DNA of 64,000 nucleotides from contig PHAT01000002.1 in NCBI GenBank assembly GCA_002840435.1, positions 452,696-516,695 on the forward strand, in the 5' to 3' direction. Under the pieces are notes generated by a model, which ran no database searches, was not told where the DNA came from, and saw only the letters and a list, made by a program, of their open reading frames with translations. Positions 11,174-33,978 of this stretch are shown piece after piece. The stretch's first letter is position 1; every line of letters starts with the position of its first letter. This DNA is from Deltaproteobacteria bacterium HGW-Deltaproteobacteria-6. Lineage in GTDB: Bacteria > Desulfobacterota > Syntrophia > Syntrophales > Smithellaceae. The translations under genes and the position numbers were made by a program.

Positions 11174-11249
11174 TCCTCAGTAGCTCAGTCGGTAGAGCGG
11201 GTGGCTGTTAACCACCATGTCCGTGGTTCGAGTCCGCGCTGGGGAGCCA
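11174..11249 (+). tRNA. tRNA-Asn (GUU)
   Basis: A complete cloverleaf of 76 nt with encoded CCA. Acceptor TCCTCAG pairs with CTGGGGA, the D-arm contains AGCTCAGTCGGTAGAGC, the anticodon arm GGTGG-CTGTTAA-CCACC has anticodon GTT, and the T-arm CGTGG-TTCGAGT-CCGCG is intact. The gene is the integration site of the island that follows. From position 11205 (start of the anticodon loop) the sequence is shared exactly with the far end of the island, so the 3' half present here was probably supplied by the element. Confidence 0.97.
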
Positions 11250-11250
11250 A
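11205..11250. repeat. Left attachment site, 46-bp direct repeat
   Basis: From the first base of the anticodon loop through CCA plus one A, this 46-bp segment is identical to 33933-33978. Sequences on both sides of the two copies differ. This is the classic footprint of a tyrosine recombinase that integrates into a tRNA gene and restores it. Confidence 0.95.
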
Positions 11251-11256
11251 TACAAT

Positions 11257-11293
11257 AAAGGGTTTAGGCGATATTCGCTTAGACCCTTTTTGT
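11257..11293 (+). terminator. Terminator of tRNA-Asn, supplied by the island
   Basis: AAAGGGTTTAGGCG-atatt-CGCTTAGACCCTTTTT forms a stem with internal mismatches followed by T5. It lies just past the left att core, so it is on the element side. A different terminator (33987-34017) follows the right att copy and is presumably the chromosomal original. Confidence 0.75.
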
Positions 11294-11295
11294 TT

Positions 11296-11319
11296 ATGCC
11301 GTAATAAATGCCGTAATAA
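11296..11319 (+). repeat. Tandem ATGCCGTAATAA repeats, candidate integrase arm sites (left)
   Basis: Two perfect tandem copies of ATGCCGTAATAA (11296-11307 and 11308-11319), followed by ...AGTGCTGTAAT. The same GCCGTAATAA tandem, also followed by AGTGCTGT, occurs at 33770-33791 just inside the right end. Matching short direct repeats flanking both att cores are what arm-type integrase binding sites look like. Confidence 0.55.
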
Positions 11320-11445
11320 ATATCAGAATAGTGCTGTAATTTCTTGGTAGGAGATGAAGGTGGTTTGGTGAGGCTTTTGGAAGATTTTTATATTTTTTAT
11401 GCATAGGCATGCTCAATTGCCTTTCACAAGGTTTATGTGCTTCGT

Positions 11446-11490
11446 CTCTTAATCAGTAGATTGTCGATTCGACCCCGGCAGGGCTCACCA
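11446..11490 (+). pseudogene. 3' fragment of a tRNA-Lys (CUU), fossil attachment site
   Basis: Exactly 45 nt with the geometry of a tRNA from anticodon loop to CCA: loop CTCTTAA (anticodon CTT), stem strand TCAGT, 5-nt variable loop, T-arm GTCGA-TTCGACC-CCGGC, acceptor strand AGGGCTC, discriminator A, CCA. No matching 5' half precedes it. It has the same boundaries as the 45 tRNA bases in the island's own tRNA-Asn att core, so it is best read as an att core from an element that used a tRNA-Lys gene, not as a decayed complete tRNA. Confidence 0.7.
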
Positions 11491-12023
11491 AAACATCAAT
11501 GGGTCAGGCAGTTAAAGCTTAGCACCTTTTATTATATTTTACCGCTTTTAGGCATAGTTATTTACAAATTATTCCTACCTTAATGTAATAATATTTCAAT
11601 AAACTAACTATTTTATCATTAATAAATACGGTATAATTATACAGTAATAACAAAATGTTATTGCTGTTTATACTGTAACCTGTGTGGCTTTATTTGTGAC
11701 TGTGTTGGTAACAATTCGCGCATGTATCACCACTTCCTGTGGAAAATAGAAAATATTACGTCTTGCACAAATCCGCATGACGTAAAGCAATCAAATGCCC
11801 TAAAAAATGATGTATGAAATAAGTGGAATCTGAAAATATAATATTCCCTGCTCGTTTCAAACCACTAACCGTAATACATGACTGTTTTTGCGATTGTTTC
11901 CAAAGAATGTAAAATATCTTGACTTTTCATTTGGTTAAGTTTTTTAATTACTGCCCTATATATTTGAAAGAAGACATAGTATCTCTATTAGATCCGTATC
12001 AGACCACGTAATGCGGGGCTCGC
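11491..12023. other. Non-coding left end of the island
   Basis: About 530 bp of AT-rich DNA upstream of the WYL regulator gene with no credible coding frame. It contains the inverted repeat at 11641-11667 and presumably the promoter of the WYL gene. Nothing else stands out. Confidence 0.5.
11641..11667. promoter_or_regulatory. Inverted repeat ACAGTAATAACA-N3-TGTTATTGCTGT
   Basis: Two 12-bp arms with one mismatch around a 3-bp centre, in AT-rich DNA about 360 bp before the WYL regulator gene. The size and symmetry fit a dimeric regulator site. Autoregulation by the WYL protein is possible but the distance is long. Confidence 0.4.
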
Positions 12024-12992
12024 ATGTCATCTAAAATAATCTATGAACGATTTCTATGGTTTCACAACGAAATTAAACAAAACAGGCATCCTAATGCACA
12101 AACATTGGCCACCCAATTTGAAATCACAGGAAAGACGGCGCAGCGCAACATTGAATTTATGCGTGACCGACTTAACGCTCCTTTACGTTATGTTCCCCAT
12201 CTTCGCGGTTACGAATATCATGACAATACTTGGGAAATCCCAGGTTTTTGGCTTCATGAAGATGAAATAATTTCACTAGTACTTTCTTACCGATTGGCCT
12301 CAGCTGTTCCGGACAGCAGCGTTAAAACAGCCCTGCGAACATTTCTCAACCAGATCATTGCCAATCACGCTTCCGCCAATTTCAGTATTGATGAACTAAG
12401 CGATAAGATATCCGTCAAGAATATCGCTTATGCCCAGACCAGCGAAAACATCTTTCACGGGTTTTTAGAGGCATTGCTCCGGTCCCGTCCCATGCGGATA
12501 GAATACTACTCACCGCACAATGGTCAAACCACCACCCGTGACATTTTGCCGTTTCACCTGCTCAACTATATGGGCACCTGGCACATCATTGCGTATTGCA
12601 ATGTCAAAAAGGAGCTGCGTGATTTTGTCTTATCGCGAATCAAAACCATTTCGGTATGTGAAACCCCGGTTGACGTCCATGTACCTGCTACCCGTGTGAA
12701 GGAATATATCCGGCAGACCTTCGGCATTTTCCAGGGGAAAGAAACCATGGAAGTCTGCTTGCGGTTTGCAAAGGACATTGCCTCATGGATTGCCGAACAG
12801 AGCTGGCATCCCGCGCAGAAAGCATGGATGGAAAAAGACGGCAGACTATCCCTCACCATCCCCGTGGCTGATTTCCGGGAAATCAAACGGGAAATATTGC
12901 GTTACGGTTCACAGGTCGAAGTCGTCACCCCCGCCGCGCTGCGGAAAGAAGTAAAAAAAGAAATCGAAAAAATGAAAAAGGTTTACTCATAG
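12024..12992 (+). CDS. WYL-domain transcriptional regulator, CRISPR-associated
   Basis: 322 residues. The N-terminal winged helix-turn-helix (residues 1-60: TLATQFEITGKTAQRNIEFMRDRLNAPLRY) is of the DeoR/HTH_11 type. The middle holds a WYL domain (RSRPMRIEYYSPHNGQTTTRDILPFHLLNYMGTWHIIAYCNVKKELRDFVLSRIK), and a WCX-like C-terminal domain follows. WYL regulators commonly sit beside CRISPR-cas operons and other defence genes and sense nucleic-acid or nucleotide ligands. It is codirectional with cas5c, which begins 161 bp later. Control of the cas operon is inferred from position. Confidence 0.88.
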   Translation: MSSKIIYERFLWFHNEIKQNRHPNAQTLATQFEITGKTAQRNIEFMRDRLNAPLRYVPHLRGYEYHDNTWEIPGFWLHEDEIISLVLSYRLASAVPDSSVKTALRTFLNQIIANHASANFSIDELSDKISVKNIAYAQTSENIFHGFLEALLRSRPMRIEYYSPHNGQTTTRDILPFHLLNYMGTWHIIAYCNVKKELRDFVLSRIKTISVCETPVDVHVPATRVKEYIRQTFGIFQGKETMEVCLRFAKDIASWIAEQSWHPAQKAWMEKDGRLSLTIPVADFREIKREILRYGSQVEVVTPAALRKEVKKEIEKMKKVYS

Positions 12993-13153: not shown

Positions 13154-13825
13154 ATGAACAAATATGAGATAGCGCTCGAAATTGCAGGCGCTACGGCTAT
13201 GTGGACAAGACCAGATACCGGTGATTGTCCGGTAAGTTATCCTACTCCCACATATTCTGCGGTAAAAGGGATATTTGAGTCAATACTATGGGGACCAGCC
13301 TTGCAAGTTACGCCATTACGGGTTGAGATTTGTGCGCCTGTCCAATATCACAACTATCAAACAAATTATGGTGGGCCTCTTCGAAAGCCCGGTGTTATAG
13401 CTACTGGCGGGGGATTCCAGTTACTGGCAACAGTACTCATCGATGTTTGTTATCGATTATACGCAGAGGTATTTCCCACCTTGAAGACGATGAAAGATCG
13501 TGTGCCAAATAAAGCACGACAGTGGGATAGTAAAACCACATCACCGGGGCATGCCTATAAGGACATCTTTTACCGACGTTTGAAGCGCGGCCAATGCTTC
13601 ACCATCCCGTTTTTGGGCTGGAAAGAATTTTGCCCAAGCTATATCGGCGAATTCCGTGAAACCACCAGGGTACAGACAGATATCAACATAGGAATTCCTT
13701 CAATGTTGAGAGAAGTATTTTCTGAAGGTTACGCATCCCAATGTGCCTTTACCTATGATCAAGATGTAAAGATAGTTGCGGGTGTGATGGAATATGCCAG
13801 ACAAGGAGTCCAATATGCTAAATGA
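13154..13825 (+). CDS. cas5c: Cas5c (type I-C), pre-crRNA processing and Cascade subunit
   Basis: 223 residues, with AAAGGAGG before the ATG. Cas5d/Cas5c features are YPTPTYSAVKGIFESILWGPALQVTPLRVEICAPVQY near the N-terminus, IFYRRLKRGQCFTIPFLGWKEFCPSYIGEF in the middle, and a TDINIGIPSMLREVF segment. In type I-C, which has no Cas6, Cas5c cleaves the CRISPR repeat and stays on the 5' handle of the crRNA in the Cascade complex. It is the first gene of the cas operon here, since cas3 is not upstream as in the usual I-C order, and overlaps cas8c by 11 bp. Confidence 0.92.
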   Translation: MNKYEIALEIAGATAMWTRPDTGDCPVSYPTPTYSAVKGIFESILWGPALQVTPLRVEICAPVQYHNYQTNYGGPLRKPGVIATGGGFQLLATVLIDVCYRLYAEVFPTLKTMKDRVPNKARQWDSKTTSPGHAYKDIFYRRLKRGQCFTIPFLGWKEFCPSYIGEFRETTRVQTDINIGIPSMLREVFSEGYASQCAFTYDQDVKIVAGVMEYARQGVQYAK

Positions 13826-15869
13826 GCTTTATCATCTCTCGGTAGCACTTGAAGATGCAGGCATCAAACCTCGTGACTGGCATAAAAACCTCAAGCCTTT
13901 GCCAAATGCTACACGAAAGAAACCATGCTATAAAATTCTGATTGACGTGAATGGCACTATATCTGGGCTTGAAACAATCAATGAAGACCTAGTAACTTGT
14001 CTTCGCAAATGGGAACCAAGCAATGGTAATTCTTTCCCTGGCTTCAATATTCAACCCCTTTACCGCATTACTGATGAAGTTACCAAGAAACGACTCAAGA
14101 AATGGCGGGAAGGCAAAGAATCAATTGATATTGAATTGCTAAAGGTATGGTGCACCGATAAGCAAATAAACTGGGACGCAAAATTTGACAAAAAAATGGG
14201 AAAATGCCTTGGAACGATTCCTGAAGACCTCAACAATATCTGCGCCAACATTCCACCTGAATTTGCAGCGATTAAGAATCTTTGTGGACGTGTCACACGT
14301 CTTGGCGATGGTGGTTCGGCTAGATTCTTTCAGGCGTTGGAATCCTTTATCTGGGACACTTTTGGCAAGGCAACTGTCCCTTCTTTACTTTCAGTGCTTA
14401 TCCATGAAGGCTCTTCAAGGAAGAAGGCTGAGGCGGATCGCGGCGCAGTTTCCGTATTCATGGATGTGCCAGATTGGAAAGAATATCCTATAGCAAGCAA
14501 AGATACAATTGATTGCATTAACAAGTGCCTAATGAATCTAATTAACAATGATGCTGTGGGAACCGAAAAAGGTTCTGAAGATGCATTTGGCGGTGGCATA
14601 AGCGGATTTGAAGAAAAACTTCCTGAGGTAAAGCTTCCTATTATTGGCGGGGTAAAACTGCGCGCCATGAGTAGCGAATTGCCATGCCAGGATCGCTATG
14701 GTACAATCGATGCAAAATCTTTTAATATCGGCAGTAACAGTCGGCGTCTCGCTAAGGGTGCATTGGAATGGCTTAGCGCTAGTGAAAGGGAAGGTTTGAC
14801 ATGGGGACGTGCTGATGGAAAAGAATTAATCTTTGCATACCCGGCAATTTTACCTAAAACACCGCCCAAGCTGGCAGCATGTTTTGGCGCACGCAAAGCG
14901 GATGATTCCGAAGAACGTTTCGCATACTATGCAAAAGATGTTCTGGATTGTCTGAGAGTTCTGGCACCATCACTTAAGGAATTGAAACTTCATGTCTTTT
15001 CACTGCGTAAAATGGATAAGGCGCGAACAAAGATCGTTTTTCACCGTAACTATTCAGCACAAAGACTAGCCGATGCGGCAAGCGAATGGCAAAAAGGATG
15101 TGCCAACATTCCAGTTATACGAATGAAGGCATGGGGGGAGGAAAAGGGTAAGACCATAATGGCAGAAACAGAAACGCCGTTTCCCCTCCAAATTGCAGAT
15201 TGTCTCAATCGGGTATGGAAATTGGACGGCACCAGTAAATGTGAAGTCAAATCTATTCCCAAGTCTGCCGGTATTGAACTCCTGCTTGATGAAGCCATCA
15301 CTCTACGCCATGTGCCTTATCTATTGACCGTAGCATTACAAAACAGCAGCGCACTCTTCGTTTCAATAGGCCAGGCATTGCACCGTAATGAAGTAATTCA
15401 TCTTGATGGATTTAATAAACATAAACAATTGATGCCTGCGATCCTGGGGATATTGCTTATGAAAATTGGCATCAGAAAGGAGAGCTACATGAATAATACA
15501 CCTTATCTTGTTGGACGTATGTTGAAAGTGGCCGATGAACTCCACGCCGTATATTGCAAGGAAGTACGTAAAGACAATCTACCGCCGCAATTGTTAGGGA
15601 ATGCCTTGATGTCGGCCGCGCTCGATAGTCCGACACAAGCACTTTCTCAACTGGCTTTACGTATCGTGCCGTATTTGGGTTGGGCGCGCACTAATTCTAC
15701 GGCCTCTGCTGGCCTATCGCGATATTTTTTAAAAGAGTTTGGCAATATCGAAGCCAAGCTACGTGATATAAATATGCCTCTACGGCTCGATGATGCAGCA
15801 AAAGCACAATTGCTTTTAGGCTATATTGCTGGCAACACACAAACAGAAGAACCGACTAATAAAATATGA
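13815..15869 (+). CDS. cas8c: Cas8c (Csd1)-like large subunit of type I-C Cascade, divergent
   Basis: 684 residues from ATG 13815, which has AAGGAG 7 nt upstream; an ATG at 13794 has none. Position between cas5c and cas7c and general layout fit Cas8c, the PAM-recognising large subunit. The C-terminal region NTPYLVGRMLKVADELHAVYC followed by a helical bundle ending LLLGYIAG matches the end of Csd1, where the usual motif reads yxLGRLFAvLE. The rest is weakly recognisable and the protein is longer than the common 570-630 residues, so it is probably a divergent branch. Confidence 0.82.
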   Translation: MLNELYHLSVALEDAGIKPRDWHKNLKPLPNATRKKPCYKILIDVNGTISGLETINEDLVTCLRKWEPSNGNSFPGFNIQPLYRITDEVTKKRLKKWREGKESIDIELLKVWCTDKQINWDAKFDKKMGKCLGTIPEDLNNICANIPPEFAAIKNLCGRVTRLGDGGSARFFQALESFIWDTFGKATVPSLLSVLIHEGSSRKKAEADRGAVSVFMDVPDWKEYPIASKDTIDCINKCLMNLINNDAVGTEKGSEDAFGGGISGFEEKLPEVKLPIIGGVKLRAMSSELPCQDRYGTIDAKSFNIGSNSRRLAKGALEWLSASEREGLTWGRADGKELIFAYPAILPKTPPKLAACFGARKADDSEERFAYYAKDVLDCLRVLAPSLKELKLHVFSLRKMDKARTKIVFHRNYSAQRLADAASEWQKGCANIPVIRMKAWGEEKGKTIMAETETPFPLQIADCLNRVWKLDGTSKCEVKSIPKSAGIELLLDEAITLRHVPYLLTVALQNSSALFVSIGQALHRNEVIHLDGFNKHKQLMPAILGILLMKIGIRKESYMNNTPYLVGRMLKVADELHAVYCKEVRKDNLPPQLLGNALMSAALDSPTQALSQLALRIVPYLGWARTNSTASAGLSRYFLKEFGNIEAKLRDINMPLRLDDAAKAQLLLGYIAGNTQTEEPTNKI

Positions 15870-15881: not shown

Positions 15882-16754
15882 ATGAGCGATAATATCAAGC
15901 GAGCTACAGGCCTCTTAATCCTTGAAGTTGTTAATTCCAATCCAAATGGTGATCCAGACAGAGAAAGTGATCCCCGCCAGCGCCCTAATGGTCTTGGTGA
16001 AATTTCGCCCGTATCCTTCAAACGAAAGCTCAGGGATTTAGTAGAGGATATAGACGGACCTGTTTTTAAAGCGATCAAAGAAAAGTTGGGTCTAAAAACA
16101 GAGGACTATAAAATTCTTGAATCTCGTGATCGTGTCAGAAGTGCGATCAAGGAAGAAATGAAAAAAGTAAACGACAATTTTCTTGAGAGCGAATTTGTTA
16201 AGAAATACTGGGATGGCCGTCTTTTTGGAAATACTTTTCTCGAAGATGCTATGGACAAAGAGACGATCAAAACCGGTGTGGCTCAGTTTGTTTTGGGGCT
16301 TTCTATTGCACCAGTGCTTATTCAGCGCCACACAAATACTAATAAAGCCGGTGTGGAAGACGGCAAGAAGCAAGGGATGGCACCTTTGGCCTATCGTATT
16401 GTTGAGCATGGTGTTTACTGTATGCCTTTTTACATTAACCCAAGCCACGCTCACAAATCAGGTTGTACGCAAAAGGATGTGGATCTTCTTCAGGCACTAA
16501 TACCTTATGCATACGATCACACCCGTTCCGCAATCCGTCCAGATGTGCGTATTCGACATGCCTGGTATATGGAACACAAAAACTCTCTTGGTAGCTGCGC
16601 AGATTGGCGACTGATTGATGCACTCACGCCAAAACGGACGGGTGATGACCCAATGCAGCCTTCAACGTTATGGAGTGATTATGTTGTTCCAGTCGGGCTT
16701 CCGCCTGAACTGAAAGAAAAGGTCTCTTGCGTGGACTTGATGGAGAACATCTAA
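15882..16754 (+). CDS. cas7c: Cas7c (Csd2), crRNA backbone subunit
   Basis: 290 residues. The Cas7/Csd2 opening is clear: RATGLLILEVVNSNPNGDPDRESDPRQRPNGLGEISPVSFKRKLRDLV. Later features are YWDGRLFGNTF, TGVAQFVLGLSIAPVLIQRHTNTNKAG, and the C-terminal DHTRSAIRPDVRIRHAWYMEHK. Cas7c forms the helical filament along the crRNA spacer in the I-C Cascade. It starts 12 bp after cas8c and its stop codon overlaps the cas3 start codon, so translation is likely coupled. Confidence 0.93.
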   Translation: MSDNIKRATGLLILEVVNSNPNGDPDRESDPRQRPNGLGEISPVSFKRKLRDLVEDIDGPVFKAIKEKLGLKTEDYKILESRDRVRSAIKEEMKKVNDNFLESEFVKKYWDGRLFGNTFLEDAMDKETIKTGVAQFVLGLSIAPVLIQRHTNTNKAGVEDGKKQGMAPLAYRIVEHGVYCMPFYINPSHAHKSGCTQKDVDLLQALIPYAYDHTRSAIRPDVRIRHAWYMEHKNSLGSCADWRLIDALTPKRTGDDPMQPSTLWSDYVVPVGLPPELKEKVSCVDLMENI

Positions 16755-18940
16755 TGCTTTTTGCTCACAGCCCCGACCCAGATCGTGGCATTGCAGCACA
16801 AGAATATGTGACCCATGTCGGCGGTGTAATTAGGCGTGCTTCAGAGGCAGCAGACAAGGCTGGCCTGTATTCAACTTGCGATGGCGACTTATTGAGAAAG
16901 TTGGTGCGTCAGGCAGCGGAATATCACGACCTGGGGAAGTTGGATATGGCAAATCAGGACGTGCTATCAGGAAAAGTAAAGGCAAATAAGTTACCTGTTC
17001 AACACACCGATGCCGGAACTGCCTATCTGTTGGACAGTCTTAAAGTAGCCCCTAGCGCTGCTCTCGTCCGATCACATCATATCGGTTTGCCCGATTTCAT
17101 CAACGAACAGAATCGTTGCGAAGAAAGCATCCTTAGAGACGATTCTGTTCGTGAAAAGGTGAATAGGACACTTCCCGATTTGCTCAAATTACATGAAGGG
17201 GTTCTTCCATCTGCTCAAAAAGTAAATACTGATAGCTGCGAAGTAGCAGGTTCCCCATCACTGTTGTTTCGAATCGCCCTTTCCTGCCTTGCTGATGGTG
17301 ATCATACCGATACCGCCATACATTACGGCGATCAGATTGCTGACGAACGGCCCATTGAACTACGCCCGGCAGAACGACTTCTTGCCCTTGACAAGTATAT
17401 TGCCACATTGAAAGAAGACAGCGAGCGCTCACGACAACGTTCAGAGGTTTACGAAGCATGCCGCAATGCTGTCACCGAAGCAAATATCGTGTCTTGTGAT
17501 AGTCCGGTTGGAACAGGTAAGACAACAGCAGTTATGGCACATCTATTGTCTCAGGCAGAGAAACGACAACTTCGACGAATAATTATTGTCTTGCCCTTTA
17601 CAAATATTATTAGGCAATCTGTTGAAATATACCGTAAAGCCCTCTTGCTCCCCGGTGAGGATAATTCAGAACTTGTTGTGGCTGAATTACATCATCGTGC
17701 AGATTTTCAGGATATACAGAGTAGACAATTTACGGCGCTATGGAAAGCGCCTATAATTGTGACTACGGCAGTAACATTCTTTGAAACACTAGCATCAAAT
17801 ACACCCGCTAGGCTTCGGAGGCTCCATTCTTTGCCGGGAAGTGCCATTTTTATTGATGAATCACACGCAGCACTCCCGGCCAAACTTCTACCCCTAGCAT
17901 GGCAATGGATCAAAGGATTTGCTAAAGAATGGGGGTGCTACTGGGTAATGGCATCGGGATCACTCAATCGTTTTTGGAAGATTAAGGAATTCGACGATGC
18001 AGCTCTCGAAGTTCCCGAAATCATGCCGAACACATTGCGCAATCGCCTGGCAGTGTTTGAAAAACAACGAATTGTCTATCAGTTCCATGACACACCTTTT
18101 GGAACGGTCGATATTGTAGAATGGCTCGCCGCCCTACCCGGGCCAAGAATCGTTATTCTAAACACCGTGCAAAGTGCGGCGGTCGTTGCACGGGCGTATG
18201 AAAAACGCTTTAGTCGTTCTTCTGTCGAACATTTATCTACAGCACTCACGCCTATAGACCGGGATAAGACACTCAGTAGAATCAAATCCCGTTTGGAAAA
18301 CAAGAATGACTATGACTGGTCGCTCATTGCCACATCATGTGTTGAGGCCGGGGTTGACCTGTCTTTTCGGACGGGGGTGCGTGAAGCCGCTTCTTTGGTT
18401 TCTCTGCTTCAGACTGGTGGGCGAGTTAACCGCCATAATTATGTTAACGCCGAAAACGTTTGGACTATCACCCTCAAAGAAGGCGACCTCCTCAAGAAAC
18501 ATCCCGGAATGCGTGACTCATCGAAGGTACTGCTCGACCTGATATCGGAGGGCCTCGACATATCACCAGACCTTTGCACGGATGCCTTAAAGCGTGAAAT
18601 ACGATTTGCAGGAAACTTCTCAGAGAGTTTGCTGATAAAGGATAATCAGCTACGCTTTCCGCAAGTGGAAAAGGATTTTCAAGTTATTGCATCTGATACC
18701 AGGACAGTTGTTGTTGGGGATGAACTTATTGAGAGGCTAGAGAAAAATCTCCCGGTAAATTGGCGCGATATACAAAAGTCATCCGTACAAATATGGGGGT
18801 ACCGTCTCGATGCCTTGCACATCCCCGAAGTTATAAGGCATAATGGAATATATAAGTGGATATTCAACTACGATGACTTTATTGGTTATATGGCAGGTGT
18901 TTTAAGCATAGCGACTGATCCCGAATTTTATATCATTTAA
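16754..18940 (+). CDS. cas3: Cas3 HD nuclease-helicase
   Basis: 728 residues from ATG 16754, which shares its A with the cas7c stop codon. The HD nuclease domain has AAEYHDLGKLD (H58, D59), further His near QHTDAG and RSHHIGLP. The helicase domain has Walker A SPVGTGKT (residues 250-257), the DESH box (368-371), SGS in place of the more usual SAT motif, and motif VI QTGGRVNR (553-560). Cas3 is recruited by Cascade to unwind and degrade target DNA. In most I-C loci cas3 is the first gene; here it follows cas7c. The catalytic residues appear intact. Confidence 0.93.
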   Translation: MLFAHSPDPDRGIAAQEYVTHVGGVIRRASEAADKAGLYSTCDGDLLRKLVRQAAEYHDLGKLDMANQDVLSGKVKANKLPVQHTDAGTAYLLDSLKVAPSAALVRSHHIGLPDFINEQNRCEESILRDDSVREKVNRTLPDLLKLHEGVLPSAQKVNTDSCEVAGSPSLLFRIALSCLADGDHTDTAIHYGDQIADERPIELRPAERLLALDKYIATLKEDSERSRQRSEVYEACRNAVTEANIVSCDSPVGTGKTTAVMAHLLSQAEKRQLRRIIIVLPFTNIIRQSVEIYRKALLLPGEDNSELVVAELHHRADFQDIQSRQFTALWKAPIIVTTAVTFFETLASNTPARLRRLHSLPGSAIFIDESHAALPAKLLPLAWQWIKGFAKEWGCYWVMASGSLNRFWKIKEFDDAALEVPEIMPNTLRNRLAVFEKQRIVYQFHDTPFGTVDIVEWLAALPGPRIVILNTVQSAAVVARAYEKRFSRSSVEHLSTALTPIDRDKTLSRIKSRLENKNDYDWSLIATSCVEAGVDLSFRTGVREAASLVSLLQTGGRVNRHNYVNAENVWTITLKEGDLLKKHPGMRDSSKVLLDLISEGLDISPDLCTDALKREIRFAGNFSESLLIKDNQLRFPQVEKDFQVIASDTRTVVVGDELIERLEKNLPVNWRDIQKSSVQIWGYRLDALHIPEVIRHNGIYKWIFNYDDFIGYMAGVLSIATDPEFYII

Positions 18941-18960: not shown

Positions 18961-19584
18961 ATGGATGATGAGTTAATTCCAATATCTGCTCTGACACATT
19001 ACGCTTATTGTCCACGTCGTTGCGCGCTTGTCCACATTGAGCAAATGTGGACTGAAAACCGTTTCACCGCCGAAGGCCGGATCATGCATGAGCACGTGCA
19101 TGAGGAAGGCGATGAATCGCGGGGGAATGTGCGCATTGAACGCGGCGCGTCATTGCGATCTTTGCGCCTGGGGCTGATCGGCAAGGCAGATGTCGTGGAA
19201 TATCACCACCAGTCTGACGGATCATGGCAGGCTTTTCCTGTTGAGTATAAACGGGGAAAGCCCAAACCGGATCATTCCGACAAAATCCAGCTTTGCGCGC
19301 AGGCGCTGTGCCTGGAAGAAATGCTTAATGCCACCATCCCGGCAGGCGCGCTTTTCTATGGCAAAACACGTCGGCGCCTGGATGTTGATTTTGACGAAGC
19401 GCTACGGCAGGAAACAAGCGAGGCTGCCCGGCTTACGCATGAATTGATTGAATCAGGCCAGACGCCAAAACCCGTTTATGGTAAGCGTTGTGAAAGCTGT
19501 TCGCTCATGGGTGAATGCATACCCAAAACGATTCAGAAAAAGCGGTCGGTTGAAAGTTACCTGAAACGCATACTGGAAGAGTAA
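18961..19584 (+). CDS. cas4: Cas4 exonuclease, prespacer processing
   Basis: 207 residues. The four cysteines for the iron-sulfur cluster are visible (YCPRRC at the N-terminus; CESCSLMGEC near the C-terminus). RecB-type nuclease motifs are GLIGKADVVE, FPVEYKRGKPK and the QLCAQALCLEE helix. Cas4 trims prespacers and helps choose those with a correct PAM during adaptation in I-C systems. It starts 20 bp after cas3 and overlaps cas1 by one base. By eye this gene and the next two are more GC-rich than cas5c-cas3. Confidence 0.93.
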   Translation: MDDELIPISALTHYAYCPRRCALVHIEQMWTENRFTAEGRIMHEHVHEEGDESRGNVRIERGASLRSLRLGLIGKADVVEYHHQSDGSWQAFPVEYKRGKPKPDHSDKIQLCAQALCLEEMLNATIPAGALFYGKTRRRLDVDFDEALRQETSEAARLTHELIESGQTPKPVYGKRCESCSLMGECIPKTIQKKRSVESYLKRILEE

Positions 19585-20615
19585 TGAAGAAGCATCTTAA
19601 TACGTTATTTGTGACTACTCAAGGCGCATACCTGGCTAAGGAAGGCGAAACTGTAGTGGTCAAGATAAATCAGGAAGTCAGGCTGCGTGTGCCGGTGCAC
19701 ACCATCGGCGGCATTGTCTGTTTCGGCAATGTGTCTTGCAGCCCCTTTCTGATGGGTTTTTGCGGCGAAAACGGGGTCGGCATCAGCTTTTTGACGGAAT
19801 ATGGCCGCTTTCTAGCACGGGTGCAGGGGCCGGTATCCGGCAATGTGCTTCTGCGCCGTGAACAATATCGTCGTGCCGACGATCAGGTTTATTGCGCGCA
19901 AATGGCTAAAGCATTTGTGATAGGCAAGATTGCCAACTGCCGGACAGTGCTCCAGCGGGTACTTAGAGATCATCCACAAAAGCTGGATGTGGATGCGTTG
20001 CATCGCGGCGTTGATGATATGAGTCGGTCGCTGCAATCACTCGAATTGAATCAGTCCCTCGATTGTGTGCGTGGTTTGGAAGGTGATGCTGCACATACCT
20101 ATTTCAGTGCTTTTAACCATTTGATTGTCACACAGAAAGAATGTTTTTCATTTCAGGAGCGCAATCGTCGTCCGCCGCTGGATAATGTGAATTGCCTGCT
20201 GTCTTTCCTTTATATGCTGCTGATGCATGATTGCCGTTCTGCCCTGGAATCCGTCGGTCTTGATCCGGCAGTCGGCTTCTTGCATCGGGATCGGCCCGGC
20301 AGACCGAGTCTGGCACTGGACTTGATGGAAGAGTTCCGGCCATTTCTCGCAGATCGCCTGGCATTATCGCTCATTAATCTTCGTCAGGTACAGAGCAAAG
20401 GCTTTAACCAAACGGAAGCAGGCGCAGTCATGATGAATGATGAAACAAGAAAAACATTGCTTGTTGCCTATCAGGAGAGAAAGCAGGAAGAAATTCAGCA
20501 TCCATTTCTGGATGAAAAAGTAACGATTGGCTTGCTCTTTCATGTGCAGGCGTTGCTTCTCGCGCGTTGTCTGCGGGGTGATCTGGATGGCTATCCACCA
20601 TTTATCTGGAAATAA
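19584..20615 (+). CDS. cas1: Cas1 integrase
   Basis: 343 residues, full length for I-C Cas1. The metal-binding catalytic triad is present: E166 (GLEGDAA), H234 (GFLHRDRPGRPSLALDL) and E249 (LMEEFRP). Cas1 with Cas2 inserts new spacers next to the leader. The gene starts with ATG overlapping the cas4 stop and precedes cas2 by 11 bp. Nothing suggests inactivation, so the adaptation module is probably functional. Confidence 0.96.
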   Translation: MKKHLNTLFVTTQGAYLAKEGETVVVKINQEVRLRVPVHTIGGIVCFGNVSCSPFLMGFCGENGVGISFLTEYGRFLARVQGPVSGNVLLRREQYRRADDQVYCAQMAKAFVIGKIANCRTVLQRVLRDHPQKLDVDALHRGVDDMSRSLQSLELNQSLDCVRGLEGDAAHTYFSAFNHLIVTQKECFSFQERNRRPPLDNVNCLLSFLYMLLMHDCRSALESVGLDPAVGFLHRDRPGRPSLALDLMEEFRPFLADRLALSLINLRQVQSKGFNQTEAGAVMMNDETRKTLLVAYQERKQEEIQHPFLDEKVTIGLLFHVQALLLARCLRGDLDGYPPFIWK

Positions 20616-21102: not shown

Positions 21103-23310
<2,208 letters not shown>

Positions 23311-24347: not shown

Positions 24348-24369
24348 GATAGTAATTCTCCTTCCCGCC

Positions 24370-28100: not shown

Positions 28101-28192
28101 GAGTCAAGGAGCTATCAGCAGGGACGCAGACTCCTGCGACGGCCAAACCAGCCTCCGTTCCGGATTTTCCGTTCGCTATCAGGCCAATGTAG
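25169..28192 (+). CDS. Exported WD40-repeat caspase-like protease (peptidase C14)
   Basis: 1007 residues. Residues 1-25 are a signal peptide or membrane anchor (MNRTLFN, then ILIVIISLLLAAGGAFC). From about 35 to 600 come WD40-like repeats (TATITSLDSDAKGRYLVTSSTDKTLRLWD; SPDGKNFAIGY; ASIADGTIRWYNHASG). A linker with an Ig-like stretch (about 650-740) follows, then a caspase/C14 domain from about 765 (MYLLAVGVSDYSQ). The catalytic dyad is intact: H845 in IAGHGVND and C894 in FVDTCHSGN. Such prokaryotic caspase homologues cleave after basic residues and some act in cell death. Role and substrate here are unknown. It is an unusual cargo beside CRISPR-Cas, and its export argues against a simple cytoplasmic suicide role. 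Confidence 0.87.
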   Translation: MNRTLFNILIVIISLLLAAGGAFCVDKETKPILRIETGRHTATITSLDSDAKGRYLVTSSTDKTLRLWDADSGKMIQTIRPYVGEKPNEGIVYSSAISPDGSLIACNYSTAPITIAGNFNDDKTPTLFAHFKLAVFENGTWKRRFARGGFEPFVLKFSNDGKYLVAVSREYIIVYNVKDWSIQAATKDKIEIQYADILNDQIGVLSKSNELKFFKILDKKIPTNAANQYLNIMLAEENLKTISKQKLPYKDMQPHSLKLSPDGKNFAIGYKNGGRVIIGSVINNKAYIELDTHWVKDFNFVSKANFANVAWSKDGKYLYAGGLAKKETHSASESDSTIIRRWDMTKKKPTYIDIPSGISKPIGPIVPIENRGSVFTTDLDIGIINKNETRLLSPFLSHSNQRSVSIDGSGGTIGFYYQRRPDDILGDDYTFNIISRSLSPEQQASGLNAAPFSALYPSIYVPGMELVSGHRGITPSLNGVKLNIQGRIMSSTFSESLDSCIVGTDLWELIRFDRNANVIWSKLMPEMAVGVNISKDRRIVVASIADGTIRWYNHASGEELLALFPSNDRKRWVLWTPSGYYDASPQGDELIGWYFKDEKDKSGNFYPASRFKSLYYRPDIISKVLETLSESQAVIAANSDSGRKPEQALAIASLLPPSVSILSPTSGSGFSSGSVSVRYQVSSPSNESVTNVKIIVDGRPVASSRGLKIIGKDISEQTVSVTLPSKDSEIGIIAENRYSSSEPATIKLKWIGKKIDAFVIKPKMYLLAVGVSDYSQSDLKLKYAAKDAQDFAKVMNGQKGRLYRDVISRVLVNGAATKDSILDGLEWVQKETTSNDVAVIFIAGHGVNDSNGTYYFLPENAEPDKLKRTGVSLADLKQTISSLAGKVLLFVDTCHSGNIFGGRRTVVDINAIVNDLSSAENGAVVFASSTGRQYSLEKDEWANGAFTKALIEGLNGGADYTKKGSITVNMLDLFVSERVKELSAGTQTPATAKPASVPDFPFAIRPM

Positions 28193-28826: not shown

Positions 28827-28910
28827 TTAATAGCTCCTTTCGTATGTGTTTACAGTTTCGTTGAGCCGAGCTTTCCGCCGGTGTAAATATTTCATGGTGA
28901 CACCAGAGCA

Positions 28911-29130
28911 GGACATGGACAGGACATTGGGACAATGGACACCCCTACGGGGTGTGTCCATGTCTGTCCCGCTTTGTCGATGATGCTTGTCTGTCCCGAT
29001 TCTTGTCCCTCTGGTGTCCATAATGCGTTCGGCGGTCCCCCCCTCAAATCCGATAATCATTGGTGTCACCTGCATTTAGCGATACGTCATAACTTCATCC
29101 CCAACATGCTTGTTTGTCCCGCACATGTCC
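28911..29130. repeat. Cluster of GGACA / TGTCC repeats, candidate origin of the island
   Basis: Five GGACA copies lie at 28911, 28917, 28922, 28930 and 28937, then a palindrome GGACACCCC-TAC-GGGGTGTGTCC (28937-28959), then TGTCC copies at 28955, 28965, 28992, 29004, 29015, 29115 and 29126. The two halves are in inverted orientation around the palindrome. They lie beside or at the end of the helicase gene. P4-like elements replicate from short repeats bound by their own primase-helicase, so this is a plausible origin. A competing 82-codon frame (28827-29075) through the repeats is not convincing. Confidence 0.5.
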
Positions 29131-30050
29131 ATCTGCTATTTCCATAATGCTAAGGGTGTTGTCGCGGATGTAGGTACCTTCGATACGGATCATCCCAGCT
29201 TTGAGCAAGGCCTCTTCAGCCCGATTAAATTTCTTGTTTTTGGTGCCGGTTAGCACATCAGCCCCTAACGCGCTATAGAACCGTTCGCACCATTCGCTTC
29301 GGGTGAAGTTGCTGTCAGATTCGGATATCCCCATCTGTAAAATAGAAAGGAGATGTCGCGCGTCACCCGACAGGTTTGGTGCCTTCCCGTGTGTCGGATC
29401 ATACTGACATCTGATCGGTACAGCACTGTCTCCTACCTTTTCGAGTTTGAAACCGAATGGTGGAGGTAGCTCTTCTTCTTTCATTTTCGTGAATAAGATT
29501 TCGTTCCGTGCCACCTTAACTTCCCAGTCGAGAGCACCGCGAATAGCGGAAGAACCCCGGCTGACTTCCTTGTTCCCTTTGCCGGAATGGTGGAGCGTTC
29601 CGACAGTGCATTGATATTTATCCCTCAGATAGTCCACGGCGTTAAGGTAGCCACCTATGTCCTTTGCGCTGTTTTCGTCTGCCGCCGCAGAGATATGCTT
29701 CGCTAGAGTATCGATATGCATCAAGGTGATGGGGCCGTATTTGGATATAATGGCCTTTATGTGTGGCTCCAACTTCATTACGGACTGCTCAGTTATCTCA
29801 ACGCGGCGCTGGGTAACAGTGAGCTGCCCTTTGGGGATGTCGTCATACCTGTAATACTGAAGCCAGGCCTTAATGCGCCGGGGTATGCCACCATGTCCCT
29901 CGCCGTTGAAATACAATACGTTCCCCCGCCTGGCCGCGGCACTCATCCAGGATGTCCCGAACGCAACCGCCAGCGCCATGTCGATGGCCACAAAAGATTT
30001 GCCCGCGGTAGAGTCACCAAAGAACAGGCCAGTGGTTGAGGTTTCGATCA
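29095..30050 (-). CDS. RepA-like replicative helicase, lacks its own start (frameshifted from primase)
   Basis: RecA-fold AAA_25/RepA-type helicase. Walker A GDSTAGKS is encoded near 29997-30020, upstream of the first in-frame ATG (29991), so that ATG cannot be the true start. Walker B is ITLMHIDTLAKH, followed by TLHHSGKGNKEVSRGSSAIRGALDW. No ATG, GTG or TTG was found in the reading frame just before the P-loop. Instead the frame joins the end of the primase gene: one extra G in the GGG at the primase stop would read ...LFVGLIETSTTGLFFGDSTAGKS. Most likely one primase-helicase split by a frameshift, real, programmed or a sequencing error. Confidence 0.75.
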
Positions 30051-31064
30051 GCCCACAAACAGGTCCAGGTAGGGGTCGCGGGATTTGCTGTGGGTGGGGT
30101 CTGGGTCGTTGAATTCTTCGAAAATATCCACCGCGGAAACCTTGTCTCTAATTGCCTTCAGTGCCTGGTACTGGTAAGCCCATTGGTAGGCACTGTCTAC
30201 GTTGTCATTTCTGTTTCGCAATGCTTTCTCGGATACCGCAAGGCCCGGCTCTGATAATAAACATGCGATTTCCGAGGCTTCGAGTCCTTCTTTCCTAAGT
30301 CCTTTCGCGGCTTCACGAGCAACTGCCGAAGCATCTCCAGAACATTCGGGGTATCCATGTTCCATTTGCTCTTGCATCTCTGTCCGCAATTTCGACCAAA
30401 CATCCGCAAAACCCGGTCGGGGTGGAATATTTCGAAAATCCCCGGTGACAACACCGGGGGTACTTGTCCCGTTGTGATAGTGTGAATAAATCTCATCCAG
30501 CATATTTTGGATATTGACATTTGGATCGCCCAACCCCGCGGTTCCATCAAGCCAGCGGTTGTCGTCTTCGGGCATGACACCCGTCAGCGTGATAAAGGTG
30601 CCCGGAAGATCAATCGGTTGATCTTTACCGGCGGTTGCTTTATTCCGACCCAGTCCGATAATGTGCAGGCCCCGACCGGAAGGGGAACGTTGGATGTAAC
30701 ACCCTCTCCTGCGCGCTTCGGCAAGGATCTCCAACGCGAATGGGTCGCTCGGATCATCAATGTCGATAGCTCCGTATGGTGTCCCTGTTGCAGAATGCAG
30801 AGCTAGGCCGATCCCATTAGCACTGCCGTCACGAACAATGGCGATAGCCTCATTGAAAGTCATCAGTTTGTTAGGTTTGGCGACGCTGACCGGGATGATT
30901 TGTCCGTGATCGTCACGGCGACCTGGCTTTTTAGATATTTTGTTTGTTTGGGGCTTGCTCTCTGCGCACCACGTTATGATAAAACGCTGATCGTCGCGCC
31001 TGAATTCATCGGGGATGCCTTCCGTGTTGAAAAGGAGAGGGGTTTTTGCGTTAGTCGTTTCCAT
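30048..31064 (-). CDS. Prim-Pol-type primase domain protein of the island
   Basis: 338 residues. The N-terminal half resembles a bifunctional primase/polymerase fold: GIGLALHSATGTPYGAIDIDDP, with the Asp-x-Asp metal site, and CYIQRSPSGRGLHIIGLG, the usual xSPSGxGLHI motif. PGTFITLTGVMPEDDNRWLDGT follows. The C-terminal part is helical and charged, and ends KSRDPYLDLFVG at TGA 30048-30050, where a RepA-like helicase continues in the next frame. It would prime and help start replication of the excised island. Confidence 0.8.
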   Translation of the reverse strand: METTNAKTPLLFNTEGIPDEFRRDDQRFIITWCAESKPQTNKISKKPGRRDDHGQIIPVSVAKPNKLMTFNEAIAIVRDGSANGIGLALHSATGTPYGAIDIDDPSDPFALEILAEARRRGCYIQRSPSGRGLHIIGLGRNKATAGKDQPIDLPGTFITLTGVMPEDDNRWLDGTAGLGDPNVNIQNMLDEIYSHYHNGTSTPGVVTGDFRNIPPRPGFADVWSKLRTEMQEQMEHGYPECSGDASAVAREAAKGLRKEGLEASEIACLLSEPGLAVSEKALRNRNDNVDSAYQWAYQYQALKAIRDKVSAVDIFEEFNDPDPTHSKSRDPYLDLFVG

Positions 31065-31065: not shown

Positions 31066-31317
31066 TCAACACCCCCTTAATGCCCGGATGCGGCGATACA
31101 AGGCCGCCCGGTTCTTCTCAAATTGCACGGCATTGACAGTAACGGTGCCTGCCGCCCATGCCATTGCAACTTGCCGGATTTCGGGAGTATCAGGGAAGCA
31201 GAACCTGGCAAGCGATTCACCGGACTGTAAGCTAAGATCGGGAGTGTGTCCGGTGATTGTTGCGATTGTGGCAACAATACCGATTTCCTGAAAGCTGAAT
31301 TTGTCTGTGGTGGTCAT
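31066..31317 (-). CDS. Small conserved island protein
   Basis: 83 residues from ATG 31317, with GAGGTGA 6 nt upstream; an upstream GTG/ATG giving 94 residues is less likely. Reads MTTTDKFSFQEIGIVATIATITGHTP, then SLARFCFPDTPEIRQVAMAWAAGTVTVNAVQFEKNRAALYRRIRAL. A hydrophobic N-terminal helix followed by FxFPDTPEIrqvamaW and a basic C-terminal helix occurs in small proteins between AlpA and primase genes of P4-like islands. Function unknown. It abuts the primase gene. Confidence 0.6.
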   Translation of the reverse strand: MTTTDKFSFQEIGIVATIATITGHTPDLSLQSGESLARFCFPDTPEIRQVAMAWAAGTVTVNAVQFEKNRAALYRRIRALRGC

Positions 31318-31319
31318 GG

Positions 31320-31526
31320 TTATTTCACCTCCTCGCGGGAAGCGAGCCACGACTCAATGTCGGTGCGTCGATACCCAACGGCACCGGGGGAAAGTCGGAG
31401 TCGTCTCGGGAATTTTCCGATACGCTCGAGACGCCAGATCGTTGTTTTGGAAAGACACGTGATTATTGGAAGGGCAGCAGGACGGATTATTTCTGCCGCG
31501 ATGTCATTGATGTTAGTTTTGCTCAT
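31320..31526 (-). CDS. AlpA-like / excisionase-type HTH protein
   Basis: 68 residues from ATG 31526, with GGAGG about 5 nt upstream. Core: AALPIITCLSKTTIWRLERIGKFPRRLRLSPGAVGYRRTDIESWLASREE, the winged MerR-like fold of the AlpA/phage excisionase family. These proteins regulate the integrase promoter or promote excision in P4-type elements. It lies in the leftward replication module behind the 231-residue gene and 2 bp before the next gene. A role in excision is inferred from family and position. Confidence 0.82.
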   Translation of the reverse strand: MSKTNINDIAAEIIRPAALPIITCLSKTTIWRLERIGKFPRRLRLSPGAVGYRRTDIESWLASREEVK

Positions 31527-31623
31527 TGCAACCTCCAGTATGTTGAATTTTTTCAAGTGGCCGCTTGATGGTCCAACTTATAGCGTGGAGGTTCAAAGTT
31601 GTCAGGGGAGCTAATCGGACTAG

Positions 31624-32319
31624 TTAACTTCTCCTGTGGCGTGACGGTGGTGGGATTGTTTCTCCTTCCTTTCTGAGTTGCTCAAAAAGTATTTTCCATT
31701 GAGGGCTATTACGTTCCCAAGCTTCTTTGTATTCTTTTTTTGTTTTGTTAAATGCAGCCTTACCTGCCCATTTCTTGTAATTCGTTAAAAGAGTTTCTAA
31801 GGTCATGGCTTTACGATCACGCGCGCTTTTTCCCTTTCTATCCCGTTCATGGAGAAGGTGAACGATGAAAGTCGCGTTTTCTACAGAATACCCATCGAAT
31901 ACATTCAGCATCCGTATCCATGTATAGAGCCGTTCATGGCCTAGTAGTTGTAGTCGTCGCGCATTCTTGAACTCATGGCCCTGTCCGCTTCGCCTGCCGG
32001 GTCCAGCCGTGAAGCCAAGCCCGCGTTCAAAATGCTCTTCGCCTTCTGCCTGGTGAAACTCAACAGCTCCTCGATAAAGCCAATCCATAACAAACGATAA
32101 CTGAGGGTGACCGGATGCGTGCGACTTTATAAAAAGCTCAAGGAGGAGAGTTGGCGGGAGAGGTATTCCTTTCTTCAGATAGCCTCCGGCAATTATCATA
32201 TGATCAAACAACTGAGCTTCATCAACTGATAATTCACCATGAGCAAGGTTGAAAAGACGTTCGAGTCGAAATCTTTGGATTTCATCCAAATGCTTTTTGG
32301 TTAATTCTTCTATAGTCAT
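31624..32319 (-). CDS. Hypothetical protein between integrase and AlpA
   Basis: 231 residues, soluble and helical, with no recognised domain. Visible segments are FRLERLFNLAHGELSVDEAQLFDHMIIAGGYLKKGIPLPPTLLLELFIKSHASGHPQL and AMTLETLLTNYKKWAGKAAFNKTKKEYKEAWER. An AGGAGGCAT ribosome-binding site precedes the ATG. Codirectional with the integrase (90-bp gap) and AlpA. Possibly an element-specific accessory factor. Confidence 0.65.
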   Translation of the reverse strand: MTIEELTKKHLDEIQRFRLERLFNLAHGELSVDEAQLFDHMIIAGGYLKKGIPLPPTLLLELFIKSHASGHPQLSFVMDWLYRGAVEFHQAEGEEHFERGLGFTAGPGRRSGQGHEFKNARRLQLLGHERLYTWIRMLNVFDGYSVENATFIVHLLHERDRKGKSARDRKAMTLETLLTNYKKWAGKAAFNKTKKEYKEAWERNSPQWKILFEQLRKEGETIPPPSRHRRS

Positions 32320-32410
32320 TTTATGCCTCCTGTAAAGTCCTGAAGTGATAGCGGAAAATCGATTCAGGATGCCCCGCTTGTCGTTCTGGCCGAATTATCT
32401 CTTGAAATGA

Positions 32411-33733
32411 TTATTTGTCATGTCTGATACTACTTCTTCCTGCCGAAATAGGAATGACGTTGGCTTTGGTGCCGGTGACGATGCTGGTCAGCTTGCGTTC
32501 CCATGTTTCGAGTGCGGACTTTTTTTCCTTATCATACCGATATTGATTGTAAACCTTTATGACCCCCTGTTTGTTATGGTTCAACACCGCATCAATCACC
32601 TCATCCATTTCACCGGCTTTTGCCATAAACGTCGCAGCAGTGCGCCGGAGATCGTGGGGTGTGAAGTGATCCATCCCGAAGCAGTTCTTTGTAGCCGGGT
32701 TACCTTCTTTATCAAACAGCGTCCTGCCGTCCTTGTCTGTTATTGGAGAGCGCAGGTTACGTCGTACCGTCACTGATAAAGCATTACAAGCTATGGGGTT
32801 GGTGATCTCTTCGCCGGGGTGCTTCTTTGATTGCCTGACCGGGGACGGAAATATGTAACCATTGCTTTCAGGGCTACTAATTAGATCAAGTGCTGTGTCG
32901 GTCAAATATACTCGGTGAGCTTTTCCGTTTTTTGCCCTGTCACTTGGAATTGTCCACCAACGGCCATCAATCTCTCTGGAATGCATGGCTGTCACTTCTC
33001 CGGGGCGTTGTGCAGTTACAAGAATCAGTTTAAGAGCACGGCGGGACTCTGCCGACATGCCCAGGTCGCTAAGATCAAGGGCCTGCCAAAAAGTTTTGAT
33101 TTCTTCTTCTGATAGTACCCGTTCGCGTGCCAGTTTCGGCGAAGGTAGCTTTACTCCGGAGCATGGTGTGTGTTGAAGAATATCTTTCTCAATCGCCCAA
33201 TTGAACATTTTACGAATAATCTGAAAGCAGTTGTTTGCCATCGCAGGAGCGTTGCGATTGACAATTCCTTCAAGTAGCAGCACCACGTCGCGCTTGGCGA
33301 TGTCAGCGGCTTTGCGTTTACCCCATACCGGCACCACATCACGGTTCAAAATACTCTCATCTTTTGCCCATGAACGTTTGAATCTTTTAGCGTGGCGTTC
33401 TATGTAATCCGTGCAGAGATCGGAAACAGTGGGTGCCTTGCGACGTTTTTCTGCCGCTTCTTCTTTTTCTCTCAGTGGGTCAATACCGTTCTTTACTTTG
33501 CGTCTGGCGTCTTCGAATTTGTGCCTGGCCGTCTCAAGGGTGACATCAGGATAATTTCCGAGATTCATCTCCCGGCGCTTGCCATCGATGCCATATATAT
33601 AAAGCCATGTTTTTGAGCCGGATGGCAGGATTCGGATGGTGAAGCCGTTCCCTTCTGAACGGATATATTTTTGACTTTCGGCGCGAAGTTTCTTCACCAT
33701 AGAGTCGGTAAATGTGATCTGCTTTTTGCTCAT
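32411..33733 (-). CDS. int: P4-type tyrosine integrase
   Basis: 440 residues from ATG 33733 (GGGGGTG 7 nt upstream); a GTG 9 nt further upstream is less likely. The N-terminal arm-binding/DUF4102 domain reads GNGFTIRILPSGSKTWLYIYGIDGKRREMNLGNYPDVTLETAR, followed by a SAM-like core-binding domain and the catalytic domain. The tyrosine-recombinase residues are R243 (AQRPGEV), H360-x-x-R363 (HDLRRTA), H386 (LNHN) and Y395 (VIKVYNQY). This is the enzyme expected to integrate the island into tRNA-Asn and to excise it. It lies 200 bp inside the right att copy and is transcribed inward. Confidence 0.95.
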   Translation of the reverse strand: MSKKQITFTDSMVKKLRAESQKYIRSEGNGFTIRILPSGSKTWLYIYGIDGKRREMNLGNYPDVTLETARHKFEDARRKVKNGIDPLREKEEAAEKRRKAPTVSDLCTDYIERHAKRFKRSWAKDESILNRDVVPVWGKRKAADIAKRDVVLLLEGIVNRNAPAMANNCFQIIRKMFNWAIEKDILQHTPCSGVKLPSPKLARERVLSEEEIKTFWQALDLSDLGMSAESRRALKLILVTAQRPGEVTAMHSREIDGRWWTIPSDRAKNGKAHRVYLTDTALDLISSPESNGYIFPSPVRQSKKHPGEEITNPIACNALSVTVRRNLRSPITDKDGRTLFDKEGNPATKNCFGMDHFTPHDLRRTAATFMAKAGEMDEVIDAVLNHNKQGVIKVYNQYRYDKEKKSALETWERKLTSIVTGTKANVIPISAGRSSIRHDK

Positions 33734-33769
33734 TGTAATCACCCCCTAGGCTAGTACATTGTAGCGTTG

Positions 33770-33791
33770 TGCCGTAATAATGCCGTAATAA
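33770..33791 (+). repeat. Tandem TGCCGTAATAA repeats, candidate integrase arm sites (right)
   Basis: Two perfect tandem copies of TGCCGTAATAA (33770-33780 and 33781-33791), followed by AGTGCTGTGCT. This mirrors the left-end tandem in sequence and order. It lies between the integrase start and the right att core, where arm-type sites and the int promoter usually are. Confidence 0.55.
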
Positions 33792-33932
33792 AGTGCTGTG
33801 CTTAAATGAAATTGTTTGAAACAACCTGAATTCGTAAATATACTAAAGATGTTTATTTGTCAATATGTTGAGTGATAATTATGGGATGAGGTGAAGAGAG
33901 TTGAAATCGATTGAAATTGCCAGAATAGGTTA

Positions 33933-33978
33933 CTGTTAACCACCATGTCCGTGGTTCGAGTCCGCGCTGGGGAGCCAA
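33933..33978. repeat. Right attachment site, partial tRNA-Asn duplicate
   Basis: 46 bp identical to 11205-11250, covering the tRNA-Asn from the anticodon loop to CCA plus A. The preceding sequence (CAGAATAGGTTA) is unrelated to the tRNA 5' half, so this is not a tRNA gene but the displaced chromosomal 3' end. Confidence 0.95.

Follow-up and report, generated by a model that had tools for sequence, protein, structure and literature searches.

The 64,000-nt stretch of DNA analysed here (the window) lies within contig 2 of the 4.09-Mb draft genome of Deltaproteobacteria bacterium HGW-Deltaproteobacteria-6. At a tRNA-Asn gene it holds a putative genomic island, 22,728 bp from one attachment (att) site to the other, with an integrase, an AlpA-like gene, primase- and helicase-type open reading frames (ORFs) and a type I-C system of clustered regularly interspaced short palindromic repeats (CRISPR) and cas genes (Table 1). 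That this is an integrated island of the mobile type with CRISPR-Cas as cargo is well supported by sequence comparison, namely by att repeats that derive from the tRNA, by arm-like words in each end, by relatives whose tRNA-Asn is unoccupied, by the failure to detect the integrase in the other 19 genomes of the genus at 1e-60 and by a CRISPR-free sister element. Excision, transfer (by a helper phage, helper conjugation or uptake) and active interference are inferred.

Table 1. Features of the island and its insertion site, in window coordinates.
Feature	Position	Strand	Basis
tRNA-Asn(gtt), insertion site	11174..11249	+	ARAGORN; Rfam RF00005; 3′ part = attL
attL core, 46 bp	11205..11250	+	exact repeat of attR core
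Paired arm-like words, TGCCGTAATAA x2	11297..11319	+	tandem pair inside left end
Relic tRNA-Lys(ctt) 3′ end	11446..11492	+	44/47 to own genome's tRNA-Lys
WYL-domain regulator of cas locus	12024..12992	+	Pfam, PADLOC
cas5c	13154..13825	+	Pfam, PADLOC
cas8c, rare I-C kind	13794..15869	+	PADLOC PDLC01562, 599 bits
cas7	15882..16754	+	Pfam, PADLOC
cas3, HD nuclease-helicase	16727..18940	+	Pfam, PADLOC; HD and Walker A motifs
cas4	18961..19584	+	Pfam, PADLOC
cas1, I-C type	19584..20615	+	Pfam, NCBIfam
cas2	20627..20917	+	Pfam, PADLOC
Leader	20918..21102	+	inside DNA matches to family loci G013, G053
CRISPR array, 34 identical 32-nt repeats, 33 spacers	21103..23310	+	repeat search
Spacer 17	22187..22220	+	33/34 to resident prophage
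ORF133, accessory	23464..23865	-	sister homologue (two short matches)
ORF156, accessory	23931..24401	-	sister homologue
XRE-type regulator	24653..24976	-	Pfam; 96% to sister
WD40-caspase-like protein, second cargo	25169..28192	+	Pfam; PADLOC caspase
Candidate origin	28890..29069		10 GGACA/TGTCC words + inverted repeats
RepA-like helicase frame (AAA_25)	29095..30060	-	Pfam; first ATG/GTG/TTG only after Walker A
Primase-type ORF	30048..31064	-	PHROG primases 2.2e-13; motifs AIDID, SPSGRGLH
Small ORF, no family	31066..31350	-	Pfam, PHROG searched
AlpA-like excisionase/regulator	31323..31526	-	PHROG match 3.9e-9
ORF231, no family found	31624..32319	-	Pfam, PHROG, PADLOC searched
Tyrosine integrase	32411..33742	-	Arm-DNA-bind_3, Phage_int_M, Phage_integrase (Pfam); R-HxxR-H-Y residues
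Paired arm-like words, TGCCGTAATAA x2	33770..33791	+	tandem pair inside right end
attR core, 46 bp, tRNA-Asn 3′ end only	33933..33978	+	exact repeat of attL core

The two att cores form an exact direct repeat, with mismatches directly outside it on both sides (91% identity over 68 bp), and the left copy is the 3′ end of the single tRNA-Asn that ARAGORN called in the window. No tRNA was called at the right end, and in an Rfam search of the island a tRNA was the sole match. The 5′ side of the integrase gene lies 190 bp inside attR, and its three Pfam domains and catalytic residues are those of a full tyrosine integrase. The AlpA-like ORF, a putative recombination directionality factor, was recognized through PHROG similarity only, as NCBIfam gave no match. 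The perfect repeats, the integrase and the AlpA-like protein had all been read correctly in the original prediction, which was made from the letters of the DNA. The 11-bp word TGCCGTAATAA occurs four times in the window, always within the two end pairs, where a first-order estimate predicts 0.016 copies on that strand; the pairs look like integrase arm sites.

At a threshold of 1e-60 the integrase was detected in one of 20 genomes of the genus, the window's own, hence in none of the other 19, and in two of 51 genomes of the family. The primase ORF, too, had no match in the other genomes of the genus. Six of the 19 (G004, G007, G008, G014, G015, G016) have the left-flank gene and tRNA-Asn at most 1.5 kb apart on one contig, all without the integrase, and in five of these six a homologue of the gene at 36218 follows further along the same contig, with tRNA-Asn inverted in four of the five. 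The contig of G016 stops 1.5 kb past tRNA-Asn. In G014, tRNA-Asn and the homologue of the gene at 36218 are some 5 kb apart, and the interval holds Fic and AbiEii genes. Thus, the comparison of the tRNA-Asn locus that had been proposed yielded six island-free relatives, but none in which both flanks match.

A CRISPR-free sister element was found in the metagenome-assembled genome of Smithella sp. PtaU1.Bin162 (G022; MVRV01000142, L034/L076). G022 is the second genome of the family with the integrase, and its membership makes the host of the island Smithella-like. Like the island, the sister element is bounded by att repeats derived from a tRNA (49 bp, 92% identity, L034:3284 to 13915) and has paired arm-like words, here GGTTACA, near both ends. 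Its proteins are homologous to those of the island in the integrase (49% identity), AlpA (46%), XRE (96%) and ORF156 (51%), and in two short matches to ORF133; a 601-bp DNA block around XRE is 86.5% identical between the two. Unlike the island, it is 10.6 kb long, sits at tRNA-Arg, encodes a different AAA_25 Rep protein as a single 592-aa ORF and has no cas match. On the basis of this one sister element, we assign the integrase, AlpA, Rep gene and XRE module to the core; the WD40-caspase gene, and CRISPR-Cas in the interval from ORF133 to the att end, are taken as cargo. A scan of genome contigs yielded 43 relatives of the integrase, about half of them from Geobacteraceae or other desulfuromonads by title and one being the G022 record.

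The cas locus was described beforehand as a complete type I-C system with 33 spacers, and this holds: the order is cas5-cas8c-cas7-cas3-cas4-cas1-cas2 with a WYL gene, a leader and 34 repeats, and neither the WYL gene nor any of the seven cas genes has an interrupted reading frame. No Cas6 family was found among the ORFs searched with Pfam and PADLOC. With NCBIfam, Cas1 scored 537 against the Cas1c cut-off of 385, and the I-C models of Cas5, Cas7 and Cas8c remained below their cut-offs (24.8 bits for Cas8c with TIGR01863, cut-off 218.65). The own genome holds one Cas1 match.

To place the locus, 26 I-C loci of the order were compared side by side with the window. In 22 of them cas3 comes first and cas4-cas1-cas2 last, the effectors are 22–41% identical to those of the window and Cas8c finds no match. 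The G043 locus is cut and has a Cas7 with 28% identity. The remaining three (G034, G079 and G135, from families f12, f20 and f14) share the window's order cas5-cas8c-cas7-cas3, with effectors at 63–79% identity, compared with 22–41% for the other 23 loci. The adaptation genes point elsewhere, as Cas1 is 77–93% identical to that of the classic loci of its own family and 70–78% to that of G034, G079 and G135. Detection through Cas8c undercounts I-C loci, which were found in four of 155 genomes at 1e-30 as opposed to 41 of 155 through Cas1 at 1e-100.

A tree of Cas4, Cas1 and Cas2 was made from 29 rows, comprising 28 of 43 Cas1 places and the window. The window falls inside 13 rows of its own family (support 100/97.8), together with G007 and G043 (98/95). 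A single clade of the window with G034, G079 and G135, which was named before the tree was made, was rejected by the approximately unbiased test (p 4.06e-87; 2.12e-56 without the long-branched G079). On this tree G034, G079 and G135 need three changes, of which well-supported branches force two; G034 and G135 lie within a supported set that holds a classic locus, and G079 stands apart. The effector cassettes were therefore probably exchanged more than once.

The WYL gene has a match in 10 of the 26 loci, at 64–80% identity in four loci of the family (two over part of the length only) and at 26–63% in six others. Its best matches in the family are G007 (80% over 155 aa) and G006 (68%), and none of G034, G079 and G135 has one, the G135 contig ending just upstream. 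The array repeat is identical to that of G007. DNA homology to G006 runs from 12023 to 12986 and again from 18997, and homology to G007 stops at 12986 and resumes at 19037, with a 63-nt piece (12982-13044) present twice further on. Homology to G034 is continuous from 13131 to 19589. Thus, the locus appears to be a hybrid in which cas4-cas1-cas2 (judged by the tree), WYL and leader (by identity) and the repeat (identical to that of G007) are of the host family's kind, and cas5-cas8c-cas7-cas3 are of a rare kind found in other families. That effector and adaptation modules can be independent is known in general (PMC3150331).

Spacer 17 matches the own chromosome at C1:781776-781809, with a mismatch at spacer position 6. 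The target lies in an 861-aa ORF (PHROG of unassigned function) between tail-completion and endolysin-like genes, and genes for the major head protein, protease, portal and large terminase follow about 14 to 19 kb beyond it. By this gene content the target region is a resident prophage, and the match suggests that temperate phages of this host are a source of the spacers in the array. Spacer 29 matched 22 of 23 bases in one family genome with an E-value of 0.004, which in one of 155 genomes is at chance level. The whole array matched two phage and 15 plasmid records; the matches listed are at least 98 nt long at 65–74% identity and are read as other CRISPR arrays, since they span two or more repeats. 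Viral contigs gave no matches for six of the 33 spacers: spacers 3, 9, 10 and 26, scanned with N at every sixth base, a 28-nt piece of spacer 1 and 32 nt of spacer 17. Of the immunity against phages and competing elements that had been proposed, and of the spacer search in phage, plasmid and island data suggested with it, what stands is the match of spacer 17 to the prophage.

A replication module of the island's own was also predicted. Its candidate origin is plausible, as 10 GGACA/TGTCC words fall within 180 bp compared with a mean of 0.39 per 180 bp and a maximum of four elsewhere in the window, a count that none of 5000 mononucleotide shuffles reached. The primase and helicase ORFs are likewise present, the former with motifs that we take to be those of archaeo-eukaryotic primases and the latter with the Walker A motif GDSTAGKS; an intact module, however, was not confirmed. 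No match to the primase ORF was obtained in Pfam or NCBIfam, and searches of solved structures with primase and helicase gave none either. Relatives of the primase were found neither at 1e-25 in the 154 other genomes of the order, nor at 1e-12 in 394 other genomes of the phylum, nor in the genome-contig scan, which reaches close relatives only; one plasmid and five phage records matched at 27–34% identity over about half of the query. Our reading is that primase and helicase form a single gene, divided by a frameshift or by an error in the assembly; alternatively, they may be separate genes with an unusual start, or programmed frameshifting may join them. Most of the matching PHROGs are long, several having 747–872 positions, and in phage Halfdan the primase match falls within one 768-aa gene, at the start of its primase/helicase. 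The helicase ORF, however, had no significant match to the Halfdan protein, and the two ORFs had no PHROG match in common, which weighs against a simple one-gene frameshift split. No classic slippery heptamer was seen by eye.

Taken together, we consider it likely that this is a non-conjugative integrative genomic island of a Smithella-type bacterium that carries a hybrid I-C system as cargo and uses its spacers against temperate phages. The integrase would use the 46-bp core to recombine a circular form into the 3′ end of tRNA-Asn, probably assisted by the paired 11-bp arm sites, and would leave the tRNA-Asn gene whole; the AlpA-like protein would steer excision. The cas5-cas8c-cas7-cas3 cassette would have been exchanged in between WYL and cas4 of an I-C locus of the host family. 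The spacers would then be directed against temperate phages, one target being a relative of the resident prophage.

Several results weigh against this reading. The tRNA-Asn is inverted in four of the six unoccupied loci, and none of eight loci compared was found to have the DUF374 and patatin genes right of attR (33979-36160) next to tRNA-Asn. The right flank is thus not syntenic, no relative has an empty site bearing both flanks of the window, and a perfect pre-integration site was not seen. None of the 43 integrase relatives has a cas match within the stretch compared. At the DNA level, both the effector and the adaptation genes are about 70% identical to those of G034, which alone would fit joint descent; it is the tree, and not this comparison, that points to an exchange. 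A target was found for only one of 33 spacers in a search that scored the two best candidate places in each of the 155 genomes and may miss protospacers elsewhere. The protospacer of spacer 17 is preceded on its 5′ side by AAT and not by TTC, the protospacer-adjacent motif used by type I-C of Pseudomonas aeruginosa (PMC7913775), so the resident prophage probably escapes interference; one target, possibly escaped, cannot define the motif. Finally, the primase and helicase frames overlap out of phase, which together with the lack of a usual helicase start before Walker A makes self-replication doubtful.

The last point bears on the alternative that fares best, which we regard as possible though clearly less probable: a domesticated or decaying island that is integrated, can no longer leave and is kept for its CRISPR system. 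It agrees with the integrative island in origin, and the out-of-phase primase and helicase frames, the relic tRNA-Lys att within the left end and adaptation genes that belong to the host family would all fit it. The integrase, the AlpA-like gene, the att cores and the arm-like words nevertheless look intact, and the Vibrio cholerae island GI-24 is described as excising, at low rates (PMC6360697).

The original prediction called the island P4-like, and a P4- or phage-inducible chromosomal island-type satellite, packaged by a helper phage and using CRISPR-Cas against rivals, would explain the integrase, the AlpA-like gene, the primase and helicase ORFs and the candidate origin. P4, too, has an AlpA-like regulator and replication genes, and its alpha protein, used here for comparison, is a primase-helicase. 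The same genome holds a possible helper, a prophage that has genes for head, tail completion and lysis, and Pfam searches of 20 island ORFs found neither a capsid nor a relaxase or other conjugation family, as had been predicted. We nonetheless judge a satellite unlikely and have dropped the assignment to P4. The replicase differs, with an AAA_25 helicase frame and a separate primase ORF, and no Psu, Sid, Delta, capsid-size, terminase-small or other packaging family was found in these 20 ORFs with Pfam or in 10 ORFs with PHROGs. At 22.7 kb the island also exceeds the P4 capsid of about 12 kb, and P4-like and P2-like elements are described as being without large systems such as CRISPR-Cas (PMC9122126). 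Less probable still is a mobilizable remnant of a conjugative element, for which there is a precedent in the integrative conjugative island pKLC102 with type I-C in Pseudomonas (PMC7913775), since no relaxase or type IV secretion family was found in the 20 ORFs (an origin of transfer was not searched for). That an ordinary chromosomal region lies between tRNA copies duplicated by chance or in tandem, raised at the outset as a possible refutation, is scarcely credible and was discarded: both repeat copies are tRNA-Asn sequence, but the right one is only the 3′ 46 bp and hence not a tandem tRNA, the integrase adjoins it, and integrase and primase were not found in other genomes of the genus.

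The integrative island preferred here belongs to known kinds, as there are published cases both of an excisable genomic island with CRISPR-Cas (PMC6360697) and of an integrative island with type I-C (PMC7913775). The V. cholerae islands GI-24 (type I-E, 17 kb) and VPI-6 (type I-F, 29 kb) resemble it in the integrase (a tyrosine recombinase in VPI-6), attL and attR sites and the CRISPR-Cas carried; excision was detected by nested polymerase chain reaction for GI-24 and in earlier work cited there for VPI-6 (PMC6360697). They differ in CRISPR type and host, and our island is set apart by its hybrid I-C system, its primase and helicase ORFs and the sister element that it has at another tRNA. The pKLC102-type island of P. 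aeruginosa shares a type I-C system on an integrative element and a self-targeting spacer, and 114 of its 131 matched spacers aim at phages or prophages (PMC7913775). It is conjugative, whereas no conjugation family was found in the 20 ORFs of our island. P4-like satellites have an integrase next to variable defence cargo as well (PMC9122126), but the island is about twice their size. Particular to this island are its host group, sister element, hybrid cassette and possible replicon, and we do not claim that the hybrid is unpublished.

The island adds an uncultured syntrophic lineage to the small mobile-type islands with a complete adaptive immune system, and its CRISPR-free sister helps to separate core from cargo. 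The effector cassette beside adaptation genes of other ancestry makes cassette swapping under a constant array and acquisition machinery testable. A wider idea, which we offer as speculation and think rather unlikely, is that in this order entire effector cassettes are traded between I-C loci at fixed WYL/cas4 junctions, whereas the adaptation genes, leader and repeat remain local and a new effector comes to read the inherited spacers. Small self-replicating satellite-like islands would spread such hybrids between hosts, and with them effectors that escape anti-CRISPR proteins.

Some further observations concern the cas loci and accessory genes. Relatives have extra genes between cas4 and cas1, namely Bro-N and RhuM (L123:2783-4801), Bro-N (L122:8043-8906) and, with part of the cas4 end repeated, Fic (L052:16800-17852). 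Rfam found nothing in four cas loci. The XRE-ORF156-ORF133 module occupies 23464-24976 in the window and L034:12041-13687 in the sister element. ORF156 homologues occur in eight of 155 genomes of the order including the own one, and among the seven loci outside the window checked for islands (three also by ORF list) only the sister element had the integrase. The WD40-caspase-like protein, which adjoins the XRE regulator, is a candidate defence gene or cell-death effector.

Other observations concern the insertion site. Fic and AbiEi/AbiEii-type genes follow this tRNA-Asn in G014 (L028:6430-9424; AbiEi under the Pfam cut-off), which makes the site a possible defence hotspot, and the DUF374/patatin stretch is possibly another insertion. 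The degenerate tRNA-Lys 3′ end sits within the left end of the island, and at the real tRNA-Lys of the own genome (C1 646576, 648040; L005) a displaced copy 1464 bp off delimits an apparent tiny island with the same att boundary.

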